From: Loktanella sp. | GTDB taxonomy: Bacteria > Pseudomonadota > Alphaproteobacteria > Rhodobacterales > Rhodobacteraceae | Direction of reading: 5' to 3' | Assembly: GCA_017390475.1 (NCBI GenBank) | Contig: JAFPBO010000051.1 | Span: forward strand, 62,001 to 126,000 | Length of the DNA stretch: 64,000 bases | Made by a program: the position numbers and the translations under genes | Part shown: positions 22,745 to 37,300 of the stretch, one piece after another | Layout: each line of letters starts with the position of its first letter | Numbering within the stretch: the first letter of the stretch is position 1 | The notes under the pieces: generated by a model | Seen by the model: only the letters and a program-made list of their open reading frames with translations | Told to the model about the DNA's origin: nothing | Database searches by the model: none

Positions 22745-24052
22745 ATGACCACCTACCCAACCAAGGCCCGGCTAACAGACGCGATGGCCGCCAAGTTTCC
22801 CTTTCTGCCCAAAGGGCAGAAGCTGATCGCTGATGAGGTCGAACCGGGCCTTTACCTGAAGGTCGGCAAAACCGCGAAAAGCTGGGTTGTGCAGCGCGAA
22901 CTGCGCGTGCTTGATGACAGTATGCGCAAGGCGCGCAAGACGGTGCGCCGGGCCTTCGCGTCGTTTCCCGAAACCAGCGTGAAGACCGCGCGCGAACGGG
23001 CCAAGACAGAGATTGCCGCGATCCTGACCGGCGATCTGGCCGCCGACAAATCGCGGGGAGTGACCCTGGGCGAGGCGTGGGGCCTCTACCGATCTGCGAT
23101 TGAGCGCCGGGGCCGCAGCCCTGCGACAATTGAGAGCTATCGGAACGCCCTCGAAGCCGACCACCTTCTTGGCATCTGGCGCGACACGCCTCTGGAAGAC
23201 TTGGCGACCGAGGCGGGGGCGCGAAAGGTCGCGGCCCGGCACGACGCGATTTCCGCAAAGCAGACGCACCCGCAGCACGGCGGCACCTATGCTGCAAACG
23301 GCACGATGCGGACCCTTCGCGTGATCTATAACTGGGCGCTCGAACGCGGGCACGTCCGGCCAAACGCGGAGGGATGGCACCCGACCCGGCAGGTGACGTA
23401 TAATCCCGAGGAACAGAACGGCGACAAGAAGGCGATGGACCTGTCCGACCTTGCGGCGTGGTGGCAGGCATACCGTGCGATGGAAAATCGGGTGCGCGCT
23501 GAATTCCAGCTGTTCCTGTTGCTGTCTGGCAGCCGCTCGGGGGCCATTGCGACGGCACGTTGGGAACACCTCGACGTGGCCGGGCGGCGGCTACACATCC
23601 CGACGCCCAAAGGCGGCAAGGCTCGTGCCTATGACATTCCCCTGACGCGTCCGATGCTGGCCTGCCTTGCGCGCGCCCGCCGTGCTGCGAAAGTCTACCA
23701 GCCCGCCCTTGCGCGTGAATGGATATTTCCGGGCGATCCGTCGAAGGCCAAGCGCGGCACCGGCGACTTTGCCGGGCATATGTCACTCTATGCGACCACA
23801 GAGTCCAAGTTGCCGTGTTCGGGCCACGGTCTGCGCCACACCTATCGGAACGCCTGCGAATGGGCCGTGGTTAGTGACAACCTGTCGAAAAAGCTGATGA
23901 ACCATTCGCAGAAGGGCGACACCCACTCGGGCACCTATGGCAGCCGAACGGGCGTTTGGAACCAGCTTCTGCTGGCCCAAGAGCGGATAAGCACGGTGAT
24001 GATGGAAAACCTCCGGCAACACGAACCAACGTCTAGACTAGAGGTCGCTTAA
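22745..24052 (+). CDS. tyrosine-type site-specific integrase
   Basis: A 435-residue phage/island integrase of the P4-like class. The N-terminal domain (about residues 8-100) is the arm-binding fold (IADEVEPGLYLKVGKTAKSW), a SAM-like core-binding domain follows, and the catalytic domain begins near residue 235. Catalytic residues are visible: Arg264 in SGSRSG, His361-x-x-Arg364 in GHGLRHTYR, His387 or His394, and Tyr398 in SGTYGS. The GGAGG 5-9 bp upstream supports the ATG at 22745. It should catalyse integration at and excision from tRNA-Asn. Confidence 0.95.
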   Translation: MTTYPTKARLTDAMAAKFPFLPKGQKLIADEVEPGLYLKVGKTAKSWVVQRELRVLDDSMRKARKTVRRAFASFPETSVKTARERAKTEIAAILTGDLAADKSRGVTLGEAWGLYRSAIERRGRSPATIESYRNALEADHLLGIWRDTPLEDLATEAGARKVAARHDAISAKQTHPQHGGTYAANGTMRTLRVIYNWALERGHVRPNAEGWHPTRQVTYNPEEQNGDKKAMDLSDLAAWWQAYRAMENRVRAEFQLFLLLSGSRSGAIATARWEHLDVAGRRLHIPTPKGGKARAYDIPLTRPMLACLARARRAAKVYQPALAREWIFPGDPSKAKRGTGDFAGHMSLYATTESKLPCSGHGLRHTYRNACEWAVVSDNLSKKLMNHSQKGDTHSGTYGSRTGVWNQLLLAQERISTVMMENLRQHEPTSRLEVA

Positions 24053-24288
24053 ACGGCTATACATGGGATACTAAAACGCCGACGCGCATGCTGAAAAGGC
24101 GCTGCGTGTGCGTCGAGGACCTAGGGTAACTTTGCCCCGAATGCGTGCTTCTTTGGTTGGGCCACCGTTAATGGCTGAAGGCGCGGAACGGATAAGCATA
24201 CGCCAAGCCCTTTCTCCAACAGGCGATAACCCCTCTGGCGGGGCTGTCGCTCTTTGTCGTGCGGCTCCGCTCGTTTGGAGAACCGCAC

Positions 24289-24573
24289 ATGGAGAACGTC
24301 GCAGAAACTGCGAAGTTAATCGCCCGGGAAATATCCGCAGAATTAGCCAGTGGCTATGCCTCTGGCCGATATGCGCCGCCCCCTGAATACCTGAACACGG
24401 CCCACGCCGCCGCCTTCCTCGGGCTGACGCCTGCTGGGATGGAGACGATGCGCAAGGAAGGGCGTGGCCCTGCGTTTATCCGCGCCTCTGGCAAGCTGGT
24501 GCGCTACCGCGTGGCAGACCTGCACGGCTGGATGGCACAGCACCGCGTCGAACCGGGCGAGGTGCCGGAATGA
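24289..24573 (+). CDS. AlpA/excisionase-like helix-turn-helix protein
   Basis: A 94-residue protein with an N-terminal helix and a MerR/AlpA-type winged HTH (LNTAHAAAFLGLTPAGMETMRKEGRGPAFIR, then KLVRYRVADLHGWM). Proteins of this type act as excisionases or as activators of integrase and replication genes in P4-like elements. The Met at 24289 is preceded by TTTGGAGAA at good spacing. The stop overlaps the primase-helicase start by 4 bp, so the two are co-expressed. Whether it is an excisionase or a regulator cannot be told. Confidence 0.8.
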   Translation: MENVAETAKLIAREISAELASGYASGRYAPPPEYLNTAHAAAFLGLTPAGMETMRKEGRGPAFIRASGKLVRYRVADLHGWMAQHRVEPGEVPE

Positions 24574-27074
24574 GCGGCCCGGAGAACGAAAGCACCCCCG
24601 GCGCTGGGCAGCGGGCCGGGGGCGCAGAGGACAGGAACCATCATCACCCTGACAACGCGATTATACCGCCGGGTGATGAGCGTCGCGACGAAAAAGGCTT
24701 GGCGCCGGACGGGGATGCGATCCGCGAGGCGCTCGAAACCTTGCACCCAGACGGCGATTGGCACGTCTGCGCAAAGATGGTGGACGGCAAGTTCCGGGGC
24801 GGATCGCACCGCGACCTGACCACCGCCACCGAAAGCGCATTGAAGATGAACGCGCGCAGCAACACCTACGTTTCGGTTGCGGCGCTGCGGCCCGGCTGGA
24901 ATGGCCCGAAGGCCCGAAAGGAAGACGTGGCCAGCGTCGGATGGCTCTGGGTCGACATTGACCCGCGCGCGGGCGAAGACCTCGAAGCCGAGCGCGGGCG
25001 CATCTTCCGGCTCGTGACCGTTGACCTGCCAAAGTTTCGCGACGGCTCGACCGTTCCGCCGCCGACGCTGGTGATCGACAGCGGGCGCGGCTTCTGGGCG
25101 CTGTGGCGGCTTTCCGCGCCGGTGGTGATGACCGATGCTGGTGATCCGGGCTGGGGCGATGCTGTGGCCGATTTCGAGGCGCGCGTGTATGCTCTTGAGG
25201 TCGCGTTTGAGGCCGATGCCTGCCACAACGTCGAGCGCGTGATGCGGCTGCCGGGGACGGTGAACCGCAAACCCGGCGGGGGATTGTCGAAGATGGTGCC
25301 TGCTTTGGGCGCGATCTATGCGATTGAAAATTTCCCGCCGCTGGAGAAGGCCACAAATGCGAAGGCGGGAAAGACATCGGCTCCCGCCGGTTTCGGCACC
25401 AACCTCCCGAGGCTGGAAAGCCTAGATGACCTCCCGCCCAGCGTAAGTGCCCGAACCAAGATGCTGATCGTGAACGGCGATGACCCTGACGACCCGACCC
25501 GATACCCGAGCCGGTCGGAGGTGCTGTTTGCCGTTCTCTGCGAGATGGTGCGGGCCAAAGTCGATGACGCCACGATGGCGGCGGTGATCCTGGACCCTGA
25601 CCATGGGATTTCCGCGCACGTCCTCGAACAGCCCAAGCACCGCCAGTATGCGGCGGAGCAGATCGCCAAGGCGCGGGATGCGGTGGCCGAGGATACCGAC
25701 CCGCTCTTAATCGAGATGAACGCCCGCCGTGCCCTGCTGACGCATGAGGCGGGCGCGGCGCGCATCTCTGAATTTGCCTACGAACTTCTGAACCCCGAGG
25801 CTACCGACCCGGCAAAGCAGCGATGGCGCTGGGTGGTCTATATGCAGAACGCATCCGACTTTCGCCTGACGCATAGCAACCAGTCCGTGGTCTTTGGCAA
25901 GGACAAAGACGGCAACAATATCATTAAGCCATTGGGCGACGCATGGCTAAAGTGGCGCGGTCGCAGGACGCATCGGGCGCTGACCTTCGACCCCGGCGCG
26001 GGTGAAGTGGTCGGGGACAAGCTGAATCTCTGGCGCGGCTTCGCCGTCGAACCGAAGCCCGGAGATTGGAGCCTGATGCGCCAGCACATCCTCGAAGTTC
26101 TGGCAGACGGCGACCAGGAGGTGGCCGACTATATCGAGCGGTGGCTTGCTCTGGCAGTGCAGCGACCGGCGCAGCCCGCCGGTGTCGCACTGGTCTTTCG
26201 CGGTGGCCGGGGAGCGGGCAAGGGCATCTTCGCCCATTACGCCCGCGCGATGTTCGGACAGCACGGCTTCTACCTGCCTGGGGCATCGGCGCTGGGAGCC
26301 AAGTTTAACGCCCATTTCCGCGACACTGTTCTGCTTTATGCGGACGAGGTGAAGTGGAACGGAAACAAGAACGCTGAATCCCTCTTGCAGGCGATCATCA
26401 CCGAGCCTGAGTTGATGATCGAAGGCAAGTATAAGGAGGCGACCCTTGCAAAGAACCGACTGCACCTGATTATGACCTCGAATGACGATTGGGTGGTGCC
26501 CGCCGGTATCGACGAACGGCGGTTCGCCGTCTTCCGCCCTTCGAGCCATAGGCAGGGGCCTGAGCATAAGCCATACTTCGACGCGCTGGGCGCGCAGATG
26601 GATGTGAGCGGGCTGGCGGCGATGCTGTATGATCTGCGCGAGATGGATCTTGCGGGGTTTAATCCGCGCCAGATGCCTGAGAGCCGGGAACTGTCGCAGC
26701 AGAAACTGGAGGGGCTGACCGGACCCAACCGGATCGTGATGGAAATGCTGATGGAAGGCATCGCACCCGGCGGCTTCTATCCATCGGTGAAGGTTGGAAA
26801 TGAACGCCACCAGCGCGCCGATCCCGCCGTGCGCGTGCCTGCCCTGATCTCGTGGGCCATCGACCGGCGGATGCTGCGCGAGGCCCCGTCTTCGCAGAAG
26901 ATGGGCGCGGCCTTGAAGCTCCTCGGCATCGAGAGGGACAAGTTTTCGGACGTATGGGCGTGGGGCCTGCCGCCGCTCGCGCACGCGCGGCGTGTCTGGG
27001 CTGAGAATCTCGGTCTGCCCGGAATTGAATGGCCCAAGGATGATAGCTGGATCGCGCCGCCGGGCCTCGAATAG
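24570..27074 (+). CDS. P4-type primase-helicase (DUF5906-like)
   Basis: An 834-residue replication protein. The N-terminal part resembles an archaeo-eukaryotic-type primase, with VDIDP at residues 128-132 as the metal-binding acidic pair and a following SGRGFWALWRL stretch. The C-terminal part is a superfamily 3-like helicase of the DUF5906 type: Walker A GGRGAGKG at 545-552, Walker B-like LYADEVKWNGNKN, and the sensor stretch LHLIMTSNDDWVVP followed by ERRF. Such proteins start and drive autonomous replication of P4-like satellites and some plasmids. Iteron-like repeats lie immediately downstream. Confidence 0.88.
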   Translation: MSGPENESTPGAGQRAGGAEDRNHHHPDNAIIPPGDERRDEKGLAPDGDAIREALETLHPDGDWHVCAKMVDGKFRGGSHRDLTTATESALKMNARSNTYVSVAALRPGWNGPKARKEDVASVGWLWVDIDPRAGEDLEAERGRIFRLVTVDLPKFRDGSTVPPPTLVIDSGRGFWALWRLSAPVVMTDAGDPGWGDAVADFEARVYALEVAFEADACHNVERVMRLPGTVNRKPGGGLSKMVPALGAIYAIENFPPLEKATNAKAGKTSAPAGFGTNLPRLESLDDLPPSVSARTKMLIVNGDDPDDPTRYPSRSEVLFAVLCEMVRAKVDDATMAAVILDPDHGISAHVLEQPKHRQYAAEQIAKARDAVAEDTDPLLIEMNARRALLTHEAGAARISEFAYELLNPEATDPAKQRWRWVVYMQNASDFRLTHSNQSVVFGKDKDGNNIIKPLGDAWLKWRGRRTHRALTFDPGAGEVVGDKLNLWRGFAVEPKPGDWSLMRQHILEVLADGDQEVADYIERWLALAVQRPAQPAGVALVFRGGRGAGKGIFAHYARAMFGQHGFYLPGASALGAKFNAHFRDTVLLYADEVKWNGNKNAESLLQAIITEPELMIEGKYKEATLAKNRLHLIMTSNDDWVVPAGIDERRFAVFRPSSHRQGPEHKPYFDALGAQMDVSGLAAMLYDLREMDLAGFNPRQMPESRELSQQKLEGLTGPNRIVMEMLMEGIAPGGFYPSVKVGNERHQRADPAVRVPALISWAIDRRMLREAPSSQKMGAALKLLGIERDKFSDVWAWGLPPLAHARRVWAENLGLPGIEWPKDDSWIAPPGLE

Positions 27075-27078
27075 CGTC

Positions 27079-27367
27079 CCGACCGAGTATTTGCCATCCG
27101 ACCGAGGCCGATGCGAACTCGGTCGGGTGTTAACCCTATGACAGAACGTCGAAATAGCTGTCTCCCGACCGAGTAGACCGAACAGACTGGCGCCGAAAAC
27201 TTAGCCGGGAGCCGTGCCCAGAAGGGTGCGGCCCCCCGCGCTTTCTGCCTGTTTCCCGGTGTTCGGTCTTATCGGTCTACTCGGTCTGAAAGGTAAGATT
27301 AGGTAATAAAATTATTAAGATAGTTCCCGACTGAGTTGCCGACCGAGTTGAGGTTTTCCGACCGAGT
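27079..27367. repeat. iteron-like CCGACCGAGT repeats, candidate replication origin
   Basis: Eight copies of CCGACCGAGT or close variants lie just after the primase-helicase gene. Direct copies are at 27079, 27098 (9 of 10 bases), 27165, 27327 (one mismatch), 27339 and 27358; inverted copies are at 27117-27126 and 27279-27286 (partial). Copies 27165 and 27279 are extended into an inverted repeat (GAGTAGACCGA / TCGGTCTACTC). Between them at 27293-27325 is a conspicuously AT-rich stretch that could unwind. The arrangement matches an origin recognised by the element's own initiator. Confidence 0.65.
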
Positions 27368-27370
27368 TGC

Positions 27371-27643
27371 CGCTTTGCTGCGCAGCCCCTTTGGACCGGG
27401 GGGCGATTTGCCGAAACCACCGAAACCCGCGTTGTGCGCCGCCCCTAAAAGGCCACGCCCGATCCCATTGCTTGCGTCGTCTGATCCGCGATCCGCCGCG
27501 CCGATCCCCTTGGCCTGATCTTGCTGGGCAATGGCCACCCCGCAAGGGTCGCGCGATCTGCCCCCCTGAAAGCCAATTTTTGCGGGCGTTTATCGCCGGC
27601 CCGAAGGCCACCCCCGGAGCGACCGGCAGGGGGTGGCCCTTGC
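27371..27643. other. gene-free stretch downstream of the repeats
   Basis: Open frames exist here on both strands but all are overlapping shadows without ribosome-binding sites or recognisable motifs. It may be a continuation of the origin region or a 3' untranslated region of the minus-strand gene that ends at 27644. Confidence 0.4.
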
Positions 27644-28045
27644 TTATCGCAGTTCCGAGATTGATCGCTGGGTGCCATCTGATCCGAGGAACTTCCAGTT
27701 GCCATTCCAGACGTTTTCGTTGCCGTCCACGATTGACTGGTTGAGCTGGTTGAGCGTCGGAAAGCGTTCTCCGGTGTCCAGCCTGACCCACTGGCTGCCT
27801 TCGACCACGCCCTTGTATTGTTTGCGCTTGTAGTTGCGGAACACTTCGAAACCCTCCGCGAAATGGACGCCGCTTCGCCCATCGGTGAGGCCCTTGCCCT
27901 TTTGCGCCGGTTCGCTTGGCTTGGCGTCGGTTTCCCCGCATTTGAGCACACGGCTGAGGATGGCATCCTCTGTGTCTTCCCCTGCCTGCCTCTGGGCCCA
28001 GATGGCCGCAAAAACTGCCGTCGAGACTGAGATTGTTCTATTCAT
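27644..28045 (-). CDS. small protein, RAMA/DUF2924-like C-terminus, unknown role
   Basis: A 133-residue protein. The first 35 residues (ISVSTAVFAAIWAQRQAGED) resemble short ribbon-helix or SeqA-N-like dimerisation modules. The C-terminal 60 residues (YKRKQYKGVVEG, then RFPTLNQLNQSIVDG and VWNGNWKF) have the pattern of RAMA-type domains, in which a tryptophan-containing WNG..W segment ends the fold. A strong GGAGGAAG precedes the start. It is divergent from the serine recombinase gene and shares a palindromic region with it. The domain call is tentative. Confidence 0.6.
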   Translation of the reverse strand: MNRTISVSTAVFAAIWAQRQAGEDTEDAILSRVLKCGETDAKPSEPAQKGKGLTDGRSGVHFAEGFEVFRNYKRKQYKGVVEGSQWVRLDTGERFPTLNQLNQSIVDGNENVWNGNWKFLGSDGTQRSISELR

Positions 28046-28078
28046 CGCTTCCTCCGATTCTGCTTACCCCCTATAAGT

Positions 28079-28098
28079 AGCAAATAGTGCTATTTGCT
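28079..28098. promoter_or_regulatory. 20-bp palindrome in the divergent promoter region
   Basis: AGCAAATAG-TG-CTATTTGCT is a perfect inverted repeat (9-bp arms) between the start of the small protein (28045, minus) and the recombinase (28115, plus). Its position overlaps where both promoters must lie, so it is a likely operator or recombinase binding site. Confidence 0.6.
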
Positions 28099-28114
28099 GC
28101 AAGAGGAGAATTCG

Positions 28115-28711
28115 ATGAGAAAGGCTGCGATCTATGCCCGGGTTTCTACCGGCGAACAGACGCCCGAAAATCAACTTATCCGCCTGCGGGAGGTGGCAGA
28201 GCGCGCGGGTTGGGCGGTTAGTTGCGAATATGTCGAGACGGCATCCGGGGCCAAGCGCGAGCGCCCGGCGCTGGACGCGATGATGAAGGATGCCGCGCGC
28301 CGCCGGTTCGACGTGGTGATGGCGTGGGATGTGTCGCGCCTCGGGCGATCCCTGCGCGATCTGGTGGACCTGTTCGAGACGCTGCGCAGCGTCGGCTGCG
28401 ACCTCTTTCTGGAACAGCAGGCGCTTGACACATCGACACCGGCGGGCCGCGCCCTGTTGCAGATGTCGGGCGTGTTTGCCGAGTTCGAGCGCGCCATGAT
28501 CGTTGAGCGCACGAAGGCCGGGATGGCCCGCGCCCGGGCCAATGGAAAGCAGATAGGTCGTGCCCCGGCGTCTGATGCGCTGATCGACGCGATCCGCGCC
28601 CTGCGCGCGGACGGGATGGGGATGGACCGGATCGCGCGGCACCTGAAATGCGGCAAGGGCCTGTGCCAGCGGGTTTGCCAAGAGTTTGACAAGGAGAAGG
28701 AAGATGGATGA
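28115..28711 (+). CDS. serine recombinase (resolvase/invertase family)
   Basis: A 198-residue small serine recombinase. IYARVSTGEQ gives catalytic Ser11, and the family core continues with DVVMAWDVSRLGRSLRDL, GRALLQMSGVFAEFERAMIVERT and a C-terminal HTH (ADGMGMDRIARHLKCGKG). The ATG at 28115 is preceded by AAGAGGAGAA. In small elements such enzymes resolve dimers or flip a segment; no paired inverted or res sites other than the palindrome upstream are obvious. It overlaps the next gene by 8 bp. Confidence 0.9.
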   Translation: MRKAAIYARVSTGEQTPENQLIRLREVAERAGWAVSCEYVETASGAKRERPALDAMMKDAARRRFDVVMAWDVSRLGRSLRDLVDLFETLRSVGCDLFLEQQALDTSTPAGRALLQMSGVFAEFERAMIVERTKAGMARARANGKQIGRAPASDALIDAIRALRADGMGMDRIARHLKCGKGLCQRVCQEFDKEKEDG

Positions 28712-29237
28712 AGACAGGTTTGACGCGGTGGCGCGCCGCGTGTCGGACGGCACCCCCGGCGGTCCGGCCTACCGCGTCGGTAAGCGCGGATTGAAGATAG
28801 TGGAGGAACTGGCCGCGCGCGGCGTTGCCGAGGCGACGATGGCCAAGGCTCTGCGGATGGGCAAGGACGCCTTCCGCGCTGCGAAGCGACGCGACCCTGC
28901 GGTGCAGGAGGCCATCGACCGGGGCCGCGCGACCGAACACGACAAGCTCGTGGGCGTTCTGCATGACCTTGCGATGGCGGGCCAGTATGTCCCGGCGATG
29001 TTCCTCTTGAAGGCCCGCCACGGATACCGCGAGGGCGAACAGGTTGGGGTGAACGTGAACATTGACACCGGCGGCGTGATCGTGGTGCCTGATAAGATGA
29101 GCATGGAGGAGTTCCTTGAGGCCCAGCGGCAGGCGGGCCTGTATGACAGCCCGATCCGGCCCGACACCGTGGAGCGCATCCCTGGCCAGAGAACTATTGA
29201 GGCGGTACTGGACCCTGAGACGCGGCGGGGGGATTGA
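28704..29237 (+). CDS. terminase small subunit-like protein
   Basis: A 177-residue protein. It begins with a helix-turn-helix (ELAARGVAEATMAKALRMGKDAFRAAKRRD), followed by a helical segment (EHDKLVGVLHDLAMAGQYVPAMFLLKARHGYRE) characteristic of phage TerS-like/phBC6A51 proteins, and a beta-rich, Val/Ile-rich tail. AAGGAGAAGGA precedes the ATG. No large terminase gene is present in the element. Satellites use a private TerS to redirect a helper phage's packaging motor, which would fit, but this is inference. Confidence 0.7.
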   Translation: MDEDRFDAVARRVSDGTPGGPAYRVGKRGLKIVEELAARGVAEATMAKALRMGKDAFRAAKRRDPAVQEAIDRGRATEHDKLVGVLHDLAMAGQYVPAMFLLKARHGYREGEQVGVNVNIDTGGVIVVPDKMSMEEFLEAQRQAGLYDSPIRPDTVERIPGQRTIEAVLDPETRRGD

Positions 29238-29455
29238 AGTGTTCCCAATAACTAATCGGCACTCCAATCTCATTTACCACCATAAGAAAATAATGCAGCC
29301 AATCTTTATTTTTTCAAGGCACAGGAGAAATCGAAAATATTCGGCCACTAAGCGTTATGGGGCATGTCAGTTGTTGAGTTGTGGGTATTTTTTTATTTGA
29401 CGATTAACACAATCTGTTGACCTAAAAATGTGAGATGTAAGCTTAGCAACACCAG
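29238..29455. other. AT-rich intergenic region
   Basis: After the TerS-like gene, base composition changes abruptly to strongly AT-rich and stays so through the next gene to about 30770. I see no gene here. The change marks a recent insertion of foreign cargo. Confidence 0.6.
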
Positions 29456-30679
29456 TTAAATATCGTCTGCATTCAAGATTATCTTTTTCCATACTTCATC
29501 ATTGAACTGCCCACGTTTAACAATGGCAGAAAGAAGATCACAGCAGATTTTATCATATTGAGAAATTTCGGCCTTCTGACGCATTAAGTCATCTTTTTCT
29601 TTTGATTTCCAAAACCTTCCACTATGCACGGACGACGATCTTCTATTATATAAATTTTTTACCGCATCAAAAGTTGCAACTCTAGTTGATGGACCCCCAT
29701 CAATAAGCCATGCTGCCCTTGTAGCAAGCTTATAGCTTATCTCGGCGTTGTCATTGCTATTTGCCATTAGGAGGATCTCCGCGCAGATACCCAAATCAAT
29801 TGCCTGATCCTCTGGGTTTCGTCTAAGTCTTGCGCTTTGCAAACGACTCAGAGCCAACAAGACACGCTTATCAGCCGTTGACAAAAAATCAAAGAAAGTT
29901 GCTATCTTCTCAGCATCGAGAACCGTAGCCTTCCTGCCCCAAACTGGAATAGTGTGCCCGCTAGACCAGCCTGCACATCCCGAGCTCAACCAGCCTGGGT
30001 CGGCCACCACACTATAGGCTTGTTGGAATTGAATAGGTCCATCGGATGCGACTAGAATTGAGAAAAGTGCAGCCCTCCAGTAATCATAAGTTGTCGCATC
30101 TGACATTAGTCTGCTTCTGGGGTCATTTGTATCGTCGATATCGATAGATTCACTTAATATCTCAAAAGAAAGTTGTCGGGTGCGCACTAAGGCCGCGCTA
30201 GGTTGGCTTTCATGAGAGTGAAATATACTAGATTTAGAGAGTACTTCTGGAGGAAAATCAAATTTAGTTACTTCAGAGATTGGTAAAATTTTCAAGCTCT
30301 CGGACACATCTATTATTTTATCTGTTTCAATCCCACTCAAAAGTCGAACTTCCATAAAATTAAGCTTCATGTCCTGCACTAGAGAAATAAAGCTAGTAAC
30401 CACAACATCGGCTGGAAATAGTCTTGCGCGGAACATAAGTCGGCGAGCAATAGTTGAAATTTTTATTAATTCCATTCTTCCAGGTATATAAAAATATTGA
30501 CCGTCAAGATTGGCAAATACCGGAATTGACTCCAGTACTTTAATCAAAGGTTCACATGACTTGTCTGAAAATTTGTTACTGTTAGAATCACAGATAAGCT
30601 TATCATCTGGCAAATCCTGTAAAGATCGCTGCGAGGATTCTATCAAAGCTAATTTAAATATTTCAAGTTCTTTTATCAT
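29456..30679 (-). CDS. ApeA-like HEPN protein, probable anti-phage effector
   Basis: A 407-residue protein encoded by DNA far richer in AT than all surrounding genes. The C-terminal third (residues about 290-390) looks like an ApeA-type HEPN domain: AIDLGICAEILLM, a helix with LATRAAWLIDG, then NLYNRRSSSVHSG. The last contains the HEPN ribonuclease motif R-x4-H (Arg347, His352). The N-terminal two thirds resemble no domain I can name and would be the sensor. ApeA-type proteins abort infection by RNA cleavage. No signal peptide or membrane segment is seen. Family call is moderately sure; function is inferred. Confidence 0.65.
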   Translation of the reverse strand: MIKELEIFKLALIESSQRSLQDLPDDKLICDSNSNKFSDKSCEPLIKVLESIPVFANLDGQYFYIPGRMELIKISTIARRLMFRARLFPADVVVTSFISLVQDMKLNFMEVRLLSGIETDKIIDVSESLKILPISEVTKFDFPPEVLSKSSIFHSHESQPSAALVRTRQLSFEILSESIDIDDTNDPRSRLMSDATTYDYWRAALFSILVASDGPIQFQQAYSVVADPGWLSSGCAGWSSGHTIPVWGRKATVLDAEKIATFFDFLSTADKRVLLALSRLQSARLRRNPEDQAIDLGICAEILLMANSNDNAEISYKLATRAAWLIDGGPSTRVATFDAVKNLYNRRSSSVHSGRFWKSKEKDDLMRQKAEISQYDKICCDLLSAIVKRGQFNDEVWKKIILNADDI

Positions 30680-31062
30680 ATTTCACCTTGAAGTTGCTAT
30701 GCCGTGGGTTGCAGCTCTACTCTGAATTAAACATGTCGAGCAGTTTTTCAAATTAGTAACTATGCTCAACCGGGAAGCATATCAGGAACAAGATTACATC
30801 AAGGTCTGCGGACTTGTCGATAGTTCAATTCTGGATCAGAGTAGAACGAGGCAGGTAATGTTTCTTGCGGTAAGCAATGTTGTCAAGCAACTGCACCATT
30901 ACATTGAAGTCCCTTCTGTTGGCGTCAGAGCATTAAATGAACAACAACGAATAGCGCTCGGCCTCCGCCACAACCCAAAGTATGGTTGCGCATCCGGGGC
31001 GATGGCGATCCTTACAGCGCAGTGGCAGCGCGTCGGCCCCCAAACTTTGATAGGACCGACCG
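30680..31062. other. transition region, no convincing gene
   Basis: This gap runs from AT-rich to GC-rich sequence. A frame is open from 30762 to 31085, but it changes composition midway, overlaps the next gene and has no convincing ribosome-binding site. The first 80 bp should contain the promoter of the HEPN gene on the minus strand. Confidence 0.45.
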
Positions 31063-31815
31063 ATGACCGCAACGCTTTCCCCTGACGACAATCCCCCGAC
31101 CTTGCCCGCCGCCGGAACGCTCTATGGCCTGCCTGAACTGGCCGAAGCAGTTGCCACTGCGATCCGGCTTGAAGAGAAGCACCGCACCTTGATCGACCGG
31201 CTTGAGGCCGCGATCCTGAAGCAGGCGCAGGACGCCGCCGACAGTGCCCGCCGCGCGGGGTTCGGCAAGCTCGATGCGCAGAACGCCGGAAGTAAGATGG
31301 GCGTGAAGGCCCGCAATGACGTTCGGGCCATTTCCGACGATGATCGCTGGGCGATCCTGCGCCAGCTCGACGCGCTCGCTTCCGGCTTGTCGGCTTCTGA
31401 GGCTCTTTGGGCCTCGCCTGTTGTCGCACTGGCCCGCATTGGCCTTGGCACCGACAAGCGCACGAACCACATAACGCAGCTTTCGGGTGCTGGCCCTGCG
31501 GAGTTGCGGACGGCGGCAGCGCTTGCAGCCGCCACGCTGGACCGGGTTCTGGGGGCGAGTGTCGCGTCGCTTCTGGACCGGACGCCGGTGAAGCAGCGGA
31601 TCGTGTCGCCGCAGGAACTGGCTGAACGCCTGATCGGAGAAGATGTGCGGCAGGCCCGGGCCGCCATCGCGGCGGTGAAGCAGGCGCACCAGCGGGCCCT
31701 GAATGCTGACCGCGAGTTTGCGTCGGGTCGCCGGAATGCAACGGCCCGGATCGCGTCGGCACTTGCGGACCGTGACGCTGCGAAGAACGCGGGCGAACCG
31801 GTGAAGGCGAAATAA
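31063..31815 (+). CDS. element-borne protein of unknown function, helical
   Basis: A 250-residue, Ala-rich, highly charged protein that looks mostly helical. The central part (DDRWAILRQLDALASGLSASEALWASPVVALARIGLG) and a C-terminal coiled-coil-like stretch (VRQARAAIAAVKQAHQRALNADREF) are the most distinctive segments. I do not recognise a family. The stop overlaps the next start (AATAATGG region), so the two form a unit. Confidence 0.6.
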   Translation: MTATLSPDDNPPTLPAAGTLYGLPELAEAVATAIRLEEKHRTLIDRLEAAILKQAQDAADSARRAGFGKLDAQNAGSKMGVKARNDVRAISDDDRWAILRQLDALASGLSASEALWASPVVALARIGLGTDKRTNHITQLSGAGPAELRTAAALAAATLDRVLGASVASLLDRTPVKQRIVSPQELAERLIGEDVRQARAAIAAVKQAHQRALNADREFASGRRNATARIASALADRDAAKNAGEPVKAK

Positions 31816-32195
31816 TGGATATTGTGTGGTCGCAGCGGATCGCTGAGGCATACCCGACCTTGTTCCCGCGCCGCCTTCGGCACGCCCACGTGGCCCTGGT
31901 CTCCTGGGCCGAGGAGGCCAACCCTGACGGCTGGCCCACACCCTCGGATGTGGAACGCTTCGCCCGGCTCTACGGTGTGCCGCGCGGCCCCCTCGGGGCC
32001 TTGGTCGGGATGTTGTCTCGCCAGCCAGTGAATGACCGGCGGGTAGTGGTCTGGGTCGATGCGGTCCGCAATCCCGATGCGGCGTATCCGCACCTGATCC
32101 GCCAGCACGACCACAAGGTGGTCCGGGCCTTCGGGTGGTTCTGCGCCACGACCGATCTGGGCTGGCTGAAACTGCGCGCGCCGGTCCTGCACTGA
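31815..32195 (+). CDS. element-borne protein of unknown function
   Basis: A 126-residue protein, starting on the last base of the preceding stop codon. It has the look of a small winged-helix fold (ALVSWAEEANPDGWPTPSDVERFARLYGVPRGPLGALV) with a Trp-rich C-terminus. No family is recognised. It is followed by a strong bidirectional terminator, closing this two-gene unit. Confidence 0.55.
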   Translation: MDIVWSQRIAEAYPTLFPRRLRHAHVALVSWAEEANPDGWPTPSDVERFARLYGVPRGPLGALVGMLSRQPVNDRRVVVWVDAVRNPDAAYPHLIRQHDHKVVRAFGWFCATTDLGWLKLRAPVLH

Positions 32196-32255
32196 CCCTC
32201 TGAGGGAACGGCGGCGGGGTGGCGCGTATGCGCCGCGCCCGATCCCACGAAAACA

Positions 32256-32288
32256 GGCCCGCGCCGATGATGACCGGCGCGGGCCTTT
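32256..32288. terminator. bidirectional terminator between convergent genes
   Basis: GGCCCGCGCCG and CGGCGCGGGCC form a perfect 11-bp stem around an 8-nt loop, flanked by AAAA on the left and TTT on the right. It lies between the stop at 32195 (plus) and the stop at 32300 (minus). Confidence 0.8.
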
Positions 32289-32299
32289 CGGGGTGCTAC

Positions 32300-32659
32300 C
32301 TAGAACGGCGCGTTTTCCCCGACCGTGCCGAAATCTGGGCCGCGCAGGTCCTTCGGGTCTACGATGTAGTAGCTTCCGAAATCGCCCTCGCGCACCGGCC
32401 CCAAGGGCACCTGATCGAGGGGCAGGACAATGTCGAGGTCGCCCTTCGGGTTAGTGAGCCTGATGAAGTGTTCTCCCTGAGTCGTCGCAAGCCAATCGAC
32501 GGCGCTTGCGCTGATCGCAACGCCACCGCGCGCGAGCTTGCTTTGGCACCAGAGGCACACCGCGCCGGTCGCGTCCTCGTATGCGAAGTGGCGACTGCCG
32601 CCCGGGCGGCGGTTGAACATCCGCGCAGTGGCGGCATCGAACGTGTTTGAATCAGACAT
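32300..32659 (-). CDS. element-borne protein of unknown function
   Basis: A 119-residue protein. It starts MSDSNTFDAATARMFNRRPGGSRHF and includes a CLWC pair that may bind metal, a KGDLDIVLPLDQVPLG beta-rich section and an acidic, Gly-rich C-terminus. The Met at 32659 is chosen because GAGGACACA precedes it. No family is recognised. Confidence 0.55.
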   Translation of the reverse strand: MSDSNTFDAATARMFNRRPGGSRHFAYEDATGAVCLWCQSKLARGGVAISASAVDWLATTQGEHFIRLTNPKGDLDIVLPLDQVPLGPVREGDFGSYYIVDPKDLRGPDFGTVGENAPF

Positions 32660-32923
32660 TGTGTCCTCCTGCAATGGAGGGCGCTGGCGGGCGGTTGCGT
32701 GGATTGCGACAGCCGACACACCGACGCCAGCACCCGAAGGGGTGATGATGTTCTGGTGGTCGGCGCCATGTTCGGTCCCGGTCTGCCCGTTAGGCAGCCT
32801 GCCTTAAGGTTTGATGGAGGGGTGTCCTCCCGCCGGTCGATGCTCCCGGGACTTTCCGGCACAGGTGGAGCCCAAAGGCCCGCTTTTCGCTCGACAAAAG
32901 ACTGATAGCAGAATCTATTCCTT

Positions 32924-32953
32924 CTGACAACACATTGATTTAGAGGGGATAAG
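32924..32953 (+). promoter_or_regulatory. candidate promoter of the non-coding RNA / reverse transcriptase
   Basis: CTGACA (32924-32929) and GATAAG (32948-32953) are separated by 18 nt and point towards the reverse transcriptase. A transcript from here would begin near 32960 with about 310 nt of non-coding leader. Both boxes are imperfect. Confidence 0.4.
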
Positions 32954-32959
32954 TGCGCC

Positions 32960-33268
32960 CAGAAGCGGCTGAGACCTTCGTGCGAACGAAAAATGAACAT
33001 CGTGCCCCTTGTGTCGAAGGCAAGGTGACCCCATATGTGTGGTATGGTGCCGAATTGGCGGCGTCCAGTTTCGTGTTTATACTGTCAAGGCCAAGTTCGA
33101 GGTCTGTGCAGATTGCGAGTTCCAGCATACGGGCTCCTTTCGCCAGCCACGCGGGCGGCTTTGCGGCAGTTCGGCAATACCACATTGCCAGTTGCCTCGC
33201 AGTATACGCGACCACGTCGAAGGACAACGCACACCGCAGAACGGCGGGGGCGGAGGTGTTAAGGGCTA
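32960..33268 (+). ncRNA. candidate DRT2-type template RNA upstream of the reverse transcriptase
   Basis: DRT2 systems consist of a reverse transcriptase preceded by a structured RNA of roughly this size. Here about 310 nt of non-coding sequence precede the gene. Between TGA at 33026 and TAA at 33260 there are 231 nt with no TAA, TAG or TGA in any + frame, although no family of proteins is recognisable in any of the three frames. Inverted repeats such as GGCGGC-TTT-GCGGC suggest folding. Boundaries are estimated and the call rests on the identity of the neighbouring enzyme. Confidence 0.55.
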
Positions 33269-34786
33269 GTGCGTTGGCCTGATGCTCCGTCCCCACTCGC
33301 GGAGGGCTATTTGGAAAGCGACTACGAGTTCGCCCTAGGCGACCAGAAACACTACCCGCATTTTGACGCACCCATCTCACGCCGGAATATCCGGCAGATG
33401 CTCCGCGATTTTGAAGCCGGACCAGATAGAGCATTCTACCCCTTTTTCCGATATGAGCAGTCTTGGCAACCATACCGGCTTGACGGACAGGACAAGCCCG
33501 AGCGCAAGACCCGCGAGATACGCTATGGCGCGCGGCGTGACGCTTATGTATTTGCGTTCTATCGGCGAAAGCTGGCTCGGCTTTATGAGACGCGCCTCGC
33601 AGAACTTGGCATCGCGGACTGCCCGATTGCCTACCGGCAGGTGAGGAAGGGCAACGGCGGCGGCAAGTGTAACATCGACTTCGCCAAGGACGCCTTCGAT
33701 GAGATTGATCGCCTCGGGGACTGCGTGGCCGTCGCACTGGACATCCGAAAATACTTTGAGCGGCTGGACCACCGGCGCATAAAGCGTGTCTGGTGCGACC
33801 TGCTGGGCGTCGATGAGCTGCCCGCTGACCATTTTGCAGTTTACCGCAACATCACCCGTTACCGAACTGTGGACCAGCGGGAGGTCTTCCGCCGCCTCGG
33901 CTTCTTTGGACCAAAGTTCGTGAATGGGCAGTGGATCGAAGGTTTCCTGCGCCCATACCGCGACGTGCCGAAGAAGCTGTGCTCGAGGCAGGAGTTTGAG
34001 GAGAAGATTTGCGGCAAAGGCCCGGGCGCGGGACCGTCGCTTGTTGTAGTGAACGAGAACGAATACGGCATCCCACAAGGCGCACCGATCTCTGACCTGA
34101 TCGCCAACTTCTATTTGATGGAGTTCGACACCGTGATGGCAGCCTATGCCCGTGAGCGCGGCGGCACTTATATGCGATATTCCGACGACATCCTGCTGAT
34201 CCTTCCCGGCGGTCGCAGTGAGGCAGATGCGGCCATTGATTTCGCCGTTGATGAGGTGTGCCGCCACGGGCCAGAGCTTCGGATAAAAGAGCAAAAGACC
34301 TGCGTTGCGCTGTTCCGGCGGGCAGGCGACCGGCTCGACTTCGAGCACATCCCACAACACCCTGAGGAGCCCAACAAGAACGGCTTTGAATACCTCGGCT
34401 TCCGCTATGATGGGCGGCGCGTCTATGTCCGCGATAGCACCATCTCTGGTTTTTACCGCAAGGTAGCGACGGCCGCAAACAGCGAGGCCGCGAAGCTGGT
34501 TGCGGCCAACCCAACGCGTGGCGCGGCTGAGCTGATCGGCGTGTTTGACTTTTCGCTCTTCTCGCAGCGCTTTGCGCGAGTGAAGAGGACGAAGCTGACC
34601 GACGACTACCGCAGTTGGACCTTCTATACCTACCTGAAGCGCGCATCGGGCACGTTCGAAACGAAGGGTGACCGAATCCTGCGGCAGGCCAGCGGATTCC
34701 CTGACTTCGTGCGCAGCCGCGTGGAGGAGGCGATAACGACGCGCGTGGCCAAGCGGCGCACTCCTAAGCCCGAAAATACCGCTTAG
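33269..34786 (+). CDS. antiviral reverse transcriptase, DRT2-like
   Basis: A reverse transcriptase of up to 505 residues. Catalytic motif A is AVALDIRKYFE (Asp158), the motif 4 region is GIPQGAPISD (residues 267-276), and the active-site YSDD is at 304-307 in MRYSDDILLILPGG. The N-terminal HYPHFDAPIS, GGKCNIDFAKDAFDEI and GFEYLGFRYDGR stretches are those I associate with DRT2 (UG2) defence enzymes. There is no maturase, HNH or retron NAXXH signature. The frame begins with GTG at 33269; TTG at 33311, preceded by GGAGG at 33301, may be the true start. It is the last gene of the element, next to the right attachment site. Confidence 0.8.
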   Translation: MRWPDAPSPLAEGYLESDYEFALGDQKHYPHFDAPISRRNIRQMLRDFEAGPDRAFYPFFRYEQSWQPYRLDGQDKPERKTREIRYGARRDAYVFAFYRRKLARLYETRLAELGIADCPIAYRQVRKGNGGGKCNIDFAKDAFDEIDRLGDCVAVALDIRKYFERLDHRRIKRVWCDLLGVDELPADHFAVYRNITRYRTVDQREVFRRLGFFGPKFVNGQWIEGFLRPYRDVPKKLCSRQEFEEKICGKGPGAGPSLVVVNENEYGIPQGAPISDLIANFYLMEFDTVMAAYARERGGTYMRYSDDILLILPGGRSEADAAIDFAVDEVCRHGPELRIKEQKTCVALFRRAGDRLDFEHIPQHPEEPNKNGFEYLGFRYDGRRVYVRDSTISGFYRKVATAANSEAAKLVAANPTRGAAELIGVFDFSLFSQRFARVKRTKLTDDYRSWTFYTYLKRASGTFETKGDRILRQASGFPDFVRSRVEEAITTRVAKRRTPKPENTA

Positions 34787-34787
34787 A

Positions 34788-34820
34788 GCCTTACGTGCGC
34801 CTTACTTTTCCGCCTTACGC
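34788..34820. repeat. candidate integrase arm-binding repeats, right group
   Basis: Three direct copies of GCCTTAC(G) lie at 34788, 34799 and 34812, just inside the right end of the element. The last copy with its flank (GCCTTACGCGAG) is identical to the first copy at the left end, and the 11-bp spacing of the first two copies is the same as at the left. Confidence 0.55.
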
Positions 34821-34836
34821 GAGAATATTTGGGAAT

Positions 34837-34872
34837 AAAAAAGCCCTCTAAGGCGTTGACCTTAAGGGGCTT
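34837..34872 (-). terminator. element-borne terminator for tRNA-Asn
   Basis: AAGCCCCTTAAGG and CCTTAGAGGGCTT (minus-strand orientation) form a 13-bp stem with one mismatch, followed by TTTTATT. It lies 5 bp beyond the tRNA 3' end, so the element supplies a new terminator for the tRNA gene it entered. It can also end the reverse transcriptase transcript from the other side. Confidence 0.8.
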
Positions 34873-34873
34873 A

Positions 34874-34922
34874 TTTTGGCTCCGACGGTAGGGATCGAAC
34901 CTACGACCAATTGATTAACAGT
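34874..34922. repeat. attachment-site direct repeat, right copy (attR)
   Basis: Identical to 22542-22590 over 49 bp. This copy is joined to the original 5' part of the tRNA and keeps the tRNA-Asn gene intact. The mismatches at 34873 and 34923 define the ends. Confidence 0.95.
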
Positions 34923-34951
34923 CAACTGCTCTACCGCTGAGCTACGTCGGA
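34877..34951 (-). tRNA. tRNA-Asn (GUU)
   Basis: A complete cloverleaf of 75 nt including encoded CCA. The acceptor stem is TCCGACG / CGTCGGA, the anticodon arm TTGACTGTTAATCAA has the anticodon GTT, and the T-arm contains GGTTCGATCC. It serves as the integration target of the element to its left. Confidence 0.97.
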
Positions 34952-34961
34952 ACATGGCGTG

Positions 34962-34991
34962 CGTATAGCAATGTGATTCCGTGGCGTCCAG
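34962..34991 (-). promoter_or_regulatory. candidate tRNA-Asn promoter
   Basis: On the minus strand CTGGAC (-35) and TATACG (-10) are separated by 18 nt, with the -10 about 10 bp before the mature 5' end. The fit is moderate. Confidence 0.4.
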
Positions 34992-35009
34992 AGCCTTTTG
35001 GCCGGTTTT

Positions 35010-35939
35010 TCAATTTCTTGTCATCGCCGGACCAGAGGCGTCTCGCAGGCTGAAAACAGCGGTTTCCCCGGGGGCCGGGGCGGCGCTGACTTCGCCGCGT
35101 TGGGCCAAGTCTATCAGATGCGCCAGCACATTGCGCTGTGCTGCTGGCACCAGATGTGGCGCGACATCGGTGTAGATGCGCGCAGTCAGGGTCTGGGGCG
35201 TGGCCGGGCCAGTGGTCAGCGCGGCGCGAATCTGTGCCTCGCGCGCTTGCCGGTGGTGGATCAGCCAATGCAATCTGGCCTGCGGGTCGGTCACCGGGGC
35301 ACCGTGGCCGGGGTAGAATACCGTGGCGGGCAGGGTGGTCAGTTTCCGGCAGGAGGCCATGAAATCGGTCAGATCGCCGTCCGGCGGCGAGACCAGCGAA
35401 CTGGCCCAGCCCATCACGTGATCACCGCAGAACAGCGCATCCCGCCAGCCAAAGCACAGGTGATTGCCGATATGGCCGGGGCTGTGGATCGCGGTGATCG
35501 CGCCCCAATCGCCCTGTAACTGGTCGCCGTCTGCCAGTGTCAGGTCGGGCCGGAAGTGGTGGTCGATCCCTTCGCCGCCGTCGGTCAGCCCGCGCGCGGC
35601 CAGACCGGCCATCACCGCGCTGCGCCCGGCAATGGCATCGCCAAAGGCTGCGACCGGGGCGCGGGTCCGGGCGGCCAGCGCCGGGGCAAGGGCGGAATGG
35701 TCCAGATGGCTGTGGGTGACGAGGATGTAATCCACCGGGCGTCCGGAAATCAGCAGCAGCAATGCATCCAGATGGGCCGGGTCGTCGGGGCCAGGGTCGA
35801 TCACGACCAGCCGGTCCCGCCCCAGAATATAGCTGTTGGTGCCCAGAAAGGTCATCGGCGACGGATTTGGCGCCAGCAGCAGCGTCAGATCATCGCGCAG
35901 CTTCCATGGCTGACCGGGGCGGGGGGCAAAGGCGTTCAT
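35010..35939 (-). CDS. MBL-fold metallo-hydrolase
   Basis: A protein of about 309 residues of the metallo-beta-lactamase fold, resembling LACTB2-type hydrolases. The zinc motif THSHLDHS, a second His in SPGHIGNH, the bridging Asp in FCGDHVMGW and the His in YPGHG are all present, and a C-terminal winged-helix-like domain follows. The ATG at 35939 is preferred over an in-frame GTG two codons earlier. It is the first chromosomal gene right of the element. The substrate is unknown. Confidence 0.85.
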   Translation of the reverse strand: MNAFAPRPGQPWKLRDDLTLLLAPNPSPMTFLGTNSYILGRDRLVVIDPGPDDPAHLDALLLLISGRPVDYILVTHSHLDHSALAPALAARTRAPVAAFGDAIAGRSAVMAGLAARGLTDGGEGIDHHFRPDLTLADGDQLQGDWGAITAIHSPGHIGNHLCFGWRDALFCGDHVMGWASSLVSPPDGDLTDFMASCRKLTTLPATVFYPGHGAPVTDPQARLHWLIHHRQAREAQIRAALTTGPATPQTLTARIYTDVAPHLVPAAQRNVLAHLIDLAQRGEVSAAPAPGETAVFSLRDASGPAMTRN

Positions 35940-35980
35940 CGGCACTTTCCGCCGGACCGGATGCGGGGTAGCGTTGCGGC

Positions 35981-37300
35981 ATGACGTTCAAATGGATCAA
36001 AAACATGATGCCGCGCGGGATTTATGCCCGGGCTGCGCTGATCCTTGTGTTTCCGGTTGTGTTTTTGCAATTGGTGGTTTCCGTCGTCTTTATCCAGCGC
36101 CATTTTGACGGCGTGACGCGGCTGATGACAAGTGCTGTCACCATCGACCTGCAATTCATCATCGATACTGCCAATGATGCCGCCGATCTGGATGATGCGC
36201 GCGCGGCGATTGCACCTTTGGGGGCGGCGCTGCAGATCCGCACTGATCTGCCAGCCCAGCTGGTGCCTGACAGTGATATCAATCCTTTCGTCGATCTGAC
36301 CGGGGCGACAGTGATCGCCACCCTGCGCGAGGAGATCCCCGCCATGCAGGTGGTGTCGCTGGAAGACCGGGGGCGGGTCACGCTCTGGGTTGAGACACGG
36401 CATGGCGCGTTGCAGATGGATCTGAGCCGCAGGCGCATGTCGGCGTCGAACCCGCATCAATTGCTGGTCATCATGGTGGTGATGGGCGGGTTGATGACGA
36501 TTGTCGCCTATCTGTTCCTGCGCAACCAGCTGCGCCCGATCAAGCGGATGGCGCAGGCTGCCGCAGATTACGGCAAGGGCCGGATCACGCCGTTCTGGCC
36601 CACAGGCGCGGTCGAAGTGCGGGCGGCGGGTGCGGCTTTCCTTGACATGCGCAACCGGTTGGAACGCCAGACGCAAAGCCGCACGATGATGTTGTCGGGG
36701 GTCAGCCATGATCTGCGCACGCCGCTGACCCGGCTGCGGCTAGGCCTGTCGATGCTGGACCATCCCGATGCCGCCGAACTGACCCGCGATGTCGATGATA
36801 TGCAGAAATTGCTGGATACATTTCTGGATTTCGCCCGCAGCGATGCGGCGGATAATATAGAACAGGTGGTGCCCGGCGATATTGTGCGGGCGGTGTTGCA
36901 TGATGCCACACGGATGGGGCAGCCGGTCAGCATGGCTGCGATTGACGGGCCGGCGCTGCCGATCAATCTGCGTCCGCTGGCGATCCGGCGGGCGCTGGAC
37001 AATCTGCTGGGCAATGCGCTGCGCTATGGCAGTCAGGCCCGGATCGGGGTGCAGGTGACCGAACGCGCGGTCCGGTTCTGGGTCGAGGATGACGGGCCGG
37101 GCATTCCGCCGGATCAATATGACGAGGCGATCAGCCCTTTCGTCCGGCTGGACCCCGCGCGCAATCAGGATCAGGGCAGCGGTGTCGGGCTAGGGCTGGC
37201 CATCGTCGCCGATATCGCGCGCAGCCATGGCGGGGTGCTGCGGCTGGGGGTCAGTCAGGCACTTGGCGGGTTGAAAGCAGAGCTGGTCATCAGCCGCTAG
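35981..37300 (+). CDS. EnvZ-like sensor histidine kinase
   Basis: A 439-residue membrane kinase. TM1 is at about residues 14-36, a periplasmic domain of about 125 residues follows, TM2 is near 160-180, then HAMP, HisKA with His243 in SGVSHDLRTPLTRLRL, and HATPase_c with the N box (RALDNLLGNALRYG), G1 (EDDGPGIP) and G2 (GSGVGLGLAIV). This is the EnvZ/OmpR-type architecture. No response regulator gene adjoins it here; an OmpR partner would have to lie elsewhere. Confidence 0.9.
   Translation: MTFKWIKNMMPRGIYARAALILVFPVVFLQLVVSVVFIQRHFDGVTRLMTSAVTIDLQFIIDTANDAADLDDARAAIAPLGAALQIRTDLPAQLVPDSDINPFVDLTGATVIATLREEIPAMQVVSLEDRGRVTLWVETRHGALQMDLSRRRMSASNPHQLLVIMVVMGGLMTIVAYLFLRNQLRPIKRMAQAAADYGKGRITPFWPTGAVEVRAAGAAFLDMRNRLERQTQSRTMMLSGVSHDLRTPLTRLRLGLSMLDHPDAAELTRDVDDMQKLLDTFLDFARSDAADNIEQVVPGDIVRAVLHDATRMGQPVSMAAIDGPALPINLRPLAIRRALDNLLGNALRYGSQARIGVQVTERAVRFWVEDDGPGIPPDQYDEAISPFVRLDPARNQDQGSGVGLGLAIVADIARSHGGVLRLGVSQALGGLKAELVISR

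Follow-up and report, generated by a model that had tools for sequence, protein, structure and literature searches.

The leader preceding the reverse transcriptase (RT) gene at 33311 in the window (the whole 64,000-nt stretch of Loktanella sp. DNA analysed here) is very probably the non-coding RNA (ncRNA) of a divergent DRT2 anti-phage system and, as comparison with related leaders indicates, would be the template for neo, an endless reading frame on the minus strand. In the DRT2 system of Klebsiella pneumoniae (KpnDRT2), neo lies on the strand opposite the ncRNA, the repeats derive from a 120-nt template, and the -35 and -10 elements meet 17 bp apart only across repeat joints; ACA motifs flank this template and the theoretical units of 42 homologues are all divisible by three, as described in passages of two papers (PMC12039810, PMC11100668). 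Because neo is antisense in KpnDRT2, the minus strand is the proper test strand. The window alone, however, proves little, since its minus frame is open for 798 nt.

Relatives were gathered by an RT-alignment scan of genome contigs, which gave 258, and the best 80 of these, representing 79 distinct loci, were used; one of them (L067) has 93% RT identity. The 81-locus set comprises 80 relatives with sufficient upstream DNA plus the window (L101 and L111 were excluded for upstream DNA that was too short), and the 19-leader set comprises the window plus 18 relatives, with L107 excluded; L143 is not among the analysed loci. As near-copies and repeated species are present among the 81 loci, clustering was applied to them.

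The RT gene and its structured leader

The gene downstream of the leader (33311-34786, plus strand; 491 aa, TTG start) is, by its sequence matches, that of a divergent DRT2 RT of the broad UG2/Drt2 family. PADLOC model PDLC03757 (Drt2) matches at 412.1 bits (E 9.3e-124, with the longer frame from 33269 as query) and a second model, PDLC02173 (also Drt2), at 280.5, while the best non-Drt2 RT model reaches 63.3 bits. The closest sequence relative of solved structure is 9c0i_A (Drt2; E 1.4e-55, query residues 12-435), and, judging by its length, we take 9c0i, a 425-aa Drt2, to be KpnDRT2. These family matches bear out the original prediction that the leader belongs to a DRT2-type RT. The NCBIfam Drt2 equivalog NF041746 gives 328.4 bits, under its cut-off of 390, and automatic annotation would probably not name the RTs of the window's branch Drt2. 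The annotation of a Paracoccus relative reads merely “reverse transcriptase.” Structure prediction for the RT gave a confident model (mean pLDDT 86.5, pTM 0.82).

In a quick tree of 83 RTs, in which midpoint rooting was used for drawing only and long branches were flagged, the window falls in a branch of 72 rows (support 100) that is mainly alphaproteobacterial, with a few gammaproteobacterial and acidobacterial loci. The Photobacterium and Aliivibrio RTs fall outside this branch, in a group of 11 rows. Seven RTs that reach a stop or contig end in fewer than 300 aa (L064, L074, L077, L080, L099, L136, and L137) were left out of the tree, and L029, which has a stop within the RT frame, was excluded from A1.

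A start at GTG 33269 was considered for the RT and rejected, as this codon lies inside a pseudoknot of the leader and most relatives begin at or near the codon at 33311. The start codon of most relatives (ATG) aligns at or near TTG 33311 of the window, and a ribosome-binding site, GGAGGG (33301-33306, plus strand), ends 4 nt before that TTG; the RT is therefore read as 491 aa and GTG 33269 as part of the ncRNA. A transcript ending near 33268, as had been suggested, finds no support; the implied RT start at 33269 lies within the scaffold pseudoknot.

The leader block from a conserved CTTG (33008) to the RT start aligns between the window and the 18 relatives. Local alignments of a 420-nt leader with 19 relatives all start at 32976 or beyond, which places the promoter formerly proposed at 32924-32953 outside the aligning part. 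A different candidate, by consensus only, is CTTGTG (33008-33013) and CATATG (33032-33037) separated by 18 nt (33008-33037, plus strand). The CTTG lies 74-76 nt upstream of the motif TGTCAA in 19/19 leaders; the -10 of this ncRNA promoter is less regular, three of the 19 having no hexamer (at most three mismatches to TATAAT, spacings 16-19). From this promoter and the RT start, the predicted ncRNA would run from about 33045 to 33310 (plus strand, about 266 nt).

The leader is a conserved structured RNA on the evidence of its aligned sequences. At the 5′ side is a handle hairpin, CAGT...ACTG (33066-33084, plus strand), both arms of which are conserved in the alignment, and at the 3′ side a covarying scaffold (33203-33310, plus strand) with pseudoknot arms AACGCAC (33226-33232) and GTGCGTT (33269-33275). 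Of 31 proposed scaffold pairs, 98.2% of cells are paired and nine pairs show changes on both sides, against 39-46% paired (maximum 46.3%) in slid-partner controls, although the structure was partly derived from the same sequences, which biases the pairing score in its favor. The pseudoknot helix is 99.2% paired, with double changes in two of its seven pairs. An alignment of leaders had been proposed as a way to find covarying stems, and it thus yielded a structured RNA by covariation, pseudoknot included. The minimum-free-energy z-score of the single ncRNA is weak (-1.25), and an Rfam search of the leader gave no match at gathering scores. A scaffold covariance model (R1) has 31 matches with E below 0.01 in 96 sources, 18 of them the model's own building sequences, and a single match at E ≤ 0.001 in the window's genome.

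A predicted minus-strand repeat unit

Between handle and scaffold lies the predicted template, one neo repeat unit of 141 nt or 47 codons (33075-33215, minus strand), in place of the whole 231 nt for which this role was originally proposed. One minus frame, the neo frame, has no stops in 19/19 leaders, whereas in every one of these leaders both remaining minus frames are interrupted by one or more stops within the unit. Unit length in this set is 141 nt, except in four relatives with 138 nt. When 33215 is joined to 33075, a -35 element TTGACA (33083-33088, minus strand; TGTCAA on the plus strand, identical in 19/19 leaders) and a -10 element TATACT (33201-33206, minus strand; AGTATA on the plus strand) become spaced by 17 bp across the junction and the one frame stays open. 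We infer the crossover position within the 17-bp spacer, which the sequence itself does not fix. Three close relatives have a poor -10 (TACACT in L064, TATGCT in L065, TACTGT in L071). The unit also carries a candidate translation start: the conserved plus-strand block GGGCTCCT corresponds to a Shine-Dalgarno sequence AAAGGAG (33134-33140, minus strand) followed after 5 nt by a predicted ATG start codon in the neo frame (33126-33128, minus strand), so that the whole site reads from 33140 to 33126.

The template is flanked by putative jump elements. The 5′ element, GTTTATAC (33075-33082, plus strand; consensus [G/C]TTNAA[A/G]C), opens the unit, and the 3′ element, GTCGAA (33216-33221, plus strand), is a GTCGA-like sequence just past it. 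The pair in the window is thus GTTTAT and GTCGAA, and most relatives have a GTT/GTCGA-like pair, the commonest being GTTTAA/GTCGAA and GTTGAA/GTCGAN. In 23 of 43 units the first bases and the bases right after the unit are identical in at least 4/6 positions (shuffled control 4.75%). Position 1 of the jump is G/G in 33/43 and C/C in 6/43, the C/C cases all coming from one clade. The published ACA pair (ACA-1/ACA-2) is absent at the template flanks in the window.

The wider set of 81 loci was surveyed blind to reading frame, by taking for each locus the first best candidate that combined a perfect TGTCAA with no more than one mismatch in the -10. Fifty-four loci qualify and 27 have no strict promoter pair; the unit length is divisible by three in 44/54 and not in the other 10, and 43 of those 44 units are endless, with lengths of 96 to 168 nt. 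At 75% identity there are 37 clusters, 27 with a length divisible by three, and 26 of these 27 are endless, compared with 10.7 expected from shuffles that preserve dinucleotides and ends. Pairs with at most one mismatch at 17 bp give unit lengths distributed modulo 3 as 49/22/4 upstream of the RT versus 1/5/6 in control stretches. A looser matching with spacings of 16-18 bp was rejected: it found pairs in 57/80 loci but also in 85/610 control stretches, and the stricter promoter tests were adopted for that reason. The codon phase is identical in all 43 endless units (one has a second open frame too), and a Shine-Dalgarno core stands 4-10 nt before a start codon in 37/43 units in the neo frame versus two and four of 43 in the other frames.

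When every pair with no more than one mismatch is counted, 47/81 loci have an endless unit. The close relatives L064, L065, L071, and L073, which fall outside the strict set, also have an endless unit in the same frame. Of the 34 loci left over, 17 gain a candidate once the -10 is relaxed, with GTCGA after the predicted unit end in 10/17, although these candidates are not independent, openness itself being a criterion for them. In total, 64/81 loci have a candidate unit. Seventeen of the 81 (L118, L125, L103, and 14 others) have no endless unit even with the relaxed -10, and these may use another promoter or make no Neo.

By homology to KpnDRT2, these elements suggest the following course of events. 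The ncRNA would be transcribed from about 33045 toward the RT gene, and the RT would hold its 5′ handle and pseudoknotted 3′ scaffold while copying cDNA from 33215 down to 33075. At the template end the nascent cDNA would re-anneal from the 5′ GTTNAA to the 3′ GTCGAA and restart, giving, with the predicted boundaries, a product of head-to-tail 141-nt repeats. Once double-stranded, the junctions would set TTGACA and TATACT 17 bp apart, forming a promoter that, by sequence, the single unit does not have. Transcription from it would run antisense to the ncRNA, and the resulting RNA would be read through a stop-free 47 codons per repeat from its own Shine-Dalgarno sequence and ATG, which are conserved. 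The repetitive, net hydrophobic, and possibly helical Neo would arrest the growth of the infected cell, as in KpnDRT2.

In the predicted Neo, mean hydropathy is positive in all 43 units (0.23 to 1.35), and a one-unit model has two helices, though with a mean pLDDT of 66.8 and a pTM of 0.28. A synonymous excess in the neo frame was not found among seven disjoint pairs of 141-nt units (44 vs. 39.8 expected, z 0.78); synonymous change scores higher in a different minus frame (z 2.13). The RNA structure may confound this codon-constraint test. One conjecture, to which we give only a slender chance, is that all that is kept of Neo is its hydrophobic, helical, and stop-free repeat character, along with the start site and the joint promoter, and that it acts as an effector through composition or by trapping ribosomes on an endless mRNA, not through a specific fold or target. 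Its amino-acid sequence would then drift almost freely, a suggestion based on the missing synonymous excess together with the positive hydropathy of all 43 units.

Competing readings of the leader

The strongest competitor, although an improbable one, is that the leader serves as a DRT ncRNA and template but that its cDNA functions as DNA, the mode reported for DRT9 or DRT10, with no protein made. Such a role would agree with the lack of detectable purifying selection on the amino-acid sequence, and covarying RNA structure alone would account for the conservation of the scaffold. It leaves unexplained, however, why unit length is divisible by three in 44/54 loci, why the open phase is shared by 43/43 units, and why an in-frame Shine-Dalgarno sequence and start occur in 37/43.

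Alternatively, the TGTCAA region could be the base of an RNA stem below the template and not a promoter, which we consider very unlikely. The minimum-energy fold does pair this region, but the whole of TGTCAA is unchanged throughout the 19 leaders, whereas the side opposite it is variable, and a stem leaves the 17-bp spacing, the length divisible by three, and the open phase unexplained. The two functions of the region may also coexist.

The plus strand was the basis of the original prediction, according to which the leader itself is in sense an endless frame, open at any unit length or junction. Its measurement was exact: 231 nt (33029-33259) between TGA 33026-33028 and TAA 33260-33262 have no TAA, TAG, or TGA in any of the three plus frames. 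The permutation test proposed alongside it shows this length to be unusual for the local composition, as none of 2000 dinucleotide-preserving shuffles of 32951-33270 attained 231 nt and the mean longest run was 83.8. Stop-free runs of at least 231 nt are nevertheless no rarity across the GC-rich 64-kb window, which has three on the plus strand and 16 on the minus strand. Despite the openness of all three plus frames in the window, the sense version is scarcely credible. The region homologous to 33029-33259 contains 1-10 plus-strand stops in each of the 18 related leaders and none only in the window, which refutes openness as a conserved property; across the sequences compared, it is private to the window's locus. 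No plus frame of the unit is stop-free across all 19 leaders, and the neo described in the literature runs on the strand opposite the ncRNA, which also makes plus-frame stops uninformative on neo and removes plus-frame openness as evidence. What survives is the idea of a template for an endless frame, since the middle of the leader looks like one; the strand, the criterion, and the evidence first offered do not. Stops in homologous loci together with a lack of conserved structure were named in advance as the outcome that would count against the idea, and only the first was found: the stops are present, but the structure is conserved. In the window the plus sense of the unit (33075-33215) is also stop-free in all three frames, and a concatemer of it would be endless on both strands, probably by chance.

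Lastly, that the leader is an ordinary 5′ leader or a chance-overlapping antisense gene, with minus-frame openness as a GC effect, is just as hard to credit, for although long open minus frames are frequent in the window, relatives with a unit GC of 0.44-0.50 (L070, L072, L073, L091, L068, and L028) keep the neo frame open while their other minus frames have 1-8 stops per unit, and 26/27 clusters are endless where shuffling leads one to expect 10.7.

Related systems and the place of the locus

The predicted neo locus has its closest described parallel in KpnDRT2 (UG2). Both combine an RT with an upstream ncRNA whose template is flanked by a handle on the 5′ side and a pseudoknotted scaffold on the 3′ side, and both have an endless antisense frame whose unit length is a multiple of three, TTGACA and TATAAT-like elements that only the junction brings to a spacing of 17 bp (in the window, a promoter predicted from sequence), an in-frame start with a ribosome-binding site, and a net hydrophobic unit. 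They differ in that the RT of the window has 491 aa versus 425 and belongs to a separate branch, the jump elements are GTT/GTCGA-like versus ACA-1/ACA-2, the unit is 141 nt versus 120, the -10 is TATACT, and the ATG follows the -10 by 72 nt versus the about 13 nt reported for KpnDRT2. In more divergent DRT2 clades, among which the window's branch may fall, the ncRNA is said to be findable, Neo annotation to be harder, and alternative mechanisms to be possible (PMC11100668). DRT9 and DRT10, which are class 2 UG RTs, also pair an RT with a templating ncRNA and make repetitive cDNA; their product, however, is homopolymer or short tandem-repeat DNA, as opposed to the assembled gene predicted here (PMC12483538, PMC12632851).

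Loci annotated as drt2 provide a further comparison. The drt2 locus of a Photobacterium damselae plasmid (NZ_CP065043) resembles the window in having exact TTGACA/TATAAT elements at 17 bp around a 111-nt unit, with an in-frame GGAG and an ATG 24 nt after the -10, and by our reading of the translation its codon phase is the same. Unlike the window, it has the jump elements ACAGAT/ATAGAT, and its RT is far closer to 9c0i (E 1.4e-142 vs. 1.4e-55). This AT-rich locus also yields nine further, weaker candidates, each mismatched at one or two positions. The annotated drt2 loci of Psychrobacter and Ketogulonicigenium gave no candidate unit, and that of Rhizobium (L142) gave mismatched candidates only. 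Five loci from the window's own family (L031-L035), together with that of Ketogulonicigenium (L141), represent another DRT2 group with a different, well conserved leader, CCGGATGACCAGTGTTAAGG ... CATACCACGCCAGG. A candidate unit is absent in L033, L034, L035, and L141, and L031 and L032 have only candidates with two mismatches; this group may use other elements or make another product.

Upstream of the DRT2 locus, the window has an integrase-like ORF (22745-24052), a primase-like ORF (24570-27074), and a resolvase (28094-28711), then a weak match to a terminase small subunit (28686-29237) and unknown ORFs, while a tRNA-Asn (34877-34951, minus strand) lies just 3′ of the RT. An integrated element (22745-34951) may carry the locus as cargo. 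A search for direct repeats in 26000-36000 found two short families, neither of which touches the tRNA-Asn.

The window's DRT2 branch spreads widely but thinly. RT matches with E below 1e-60, here counted as strong, occur in 4/385 genomes of the class and 3/390 of the order, the window's own being counted in both, and the scaffold model R1 matches 2 of 198 sampled family genomes, one of which is the window's own. A search of open-access literature found no paper covering both DRT2 and Alphaproteobacteria and, in titles, abstract openings, and passages, no report of Neo for this branch, although a prior description elsewhere is possible.

Overall, the locus belongs, by sequence comparison, to a divergent DRT2 branch, mainly alphaproteobacterial, for which a Neo is predicted, and looks as if it works like KpnDRT2, even though it does not have the ACA feature and scores under the NCBI cut-off. 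The candidate Neo is found by a rule, namely an antisense TTGACA and TATA element 17 bp apart across the joint, a length divisible by three, a fixed phase, an in-frame Shine-Dalgarno sequence and ATG, and a GTT/GTCGA jump pair, and the rule finds it in a branch distinct from the Klebsiella-like part of the DRT2 family. If this is true, the locus in the window is directly testable, and the assembly of hidden genes would extend to many families of Alphaproteobacteria and use an altered jump code.
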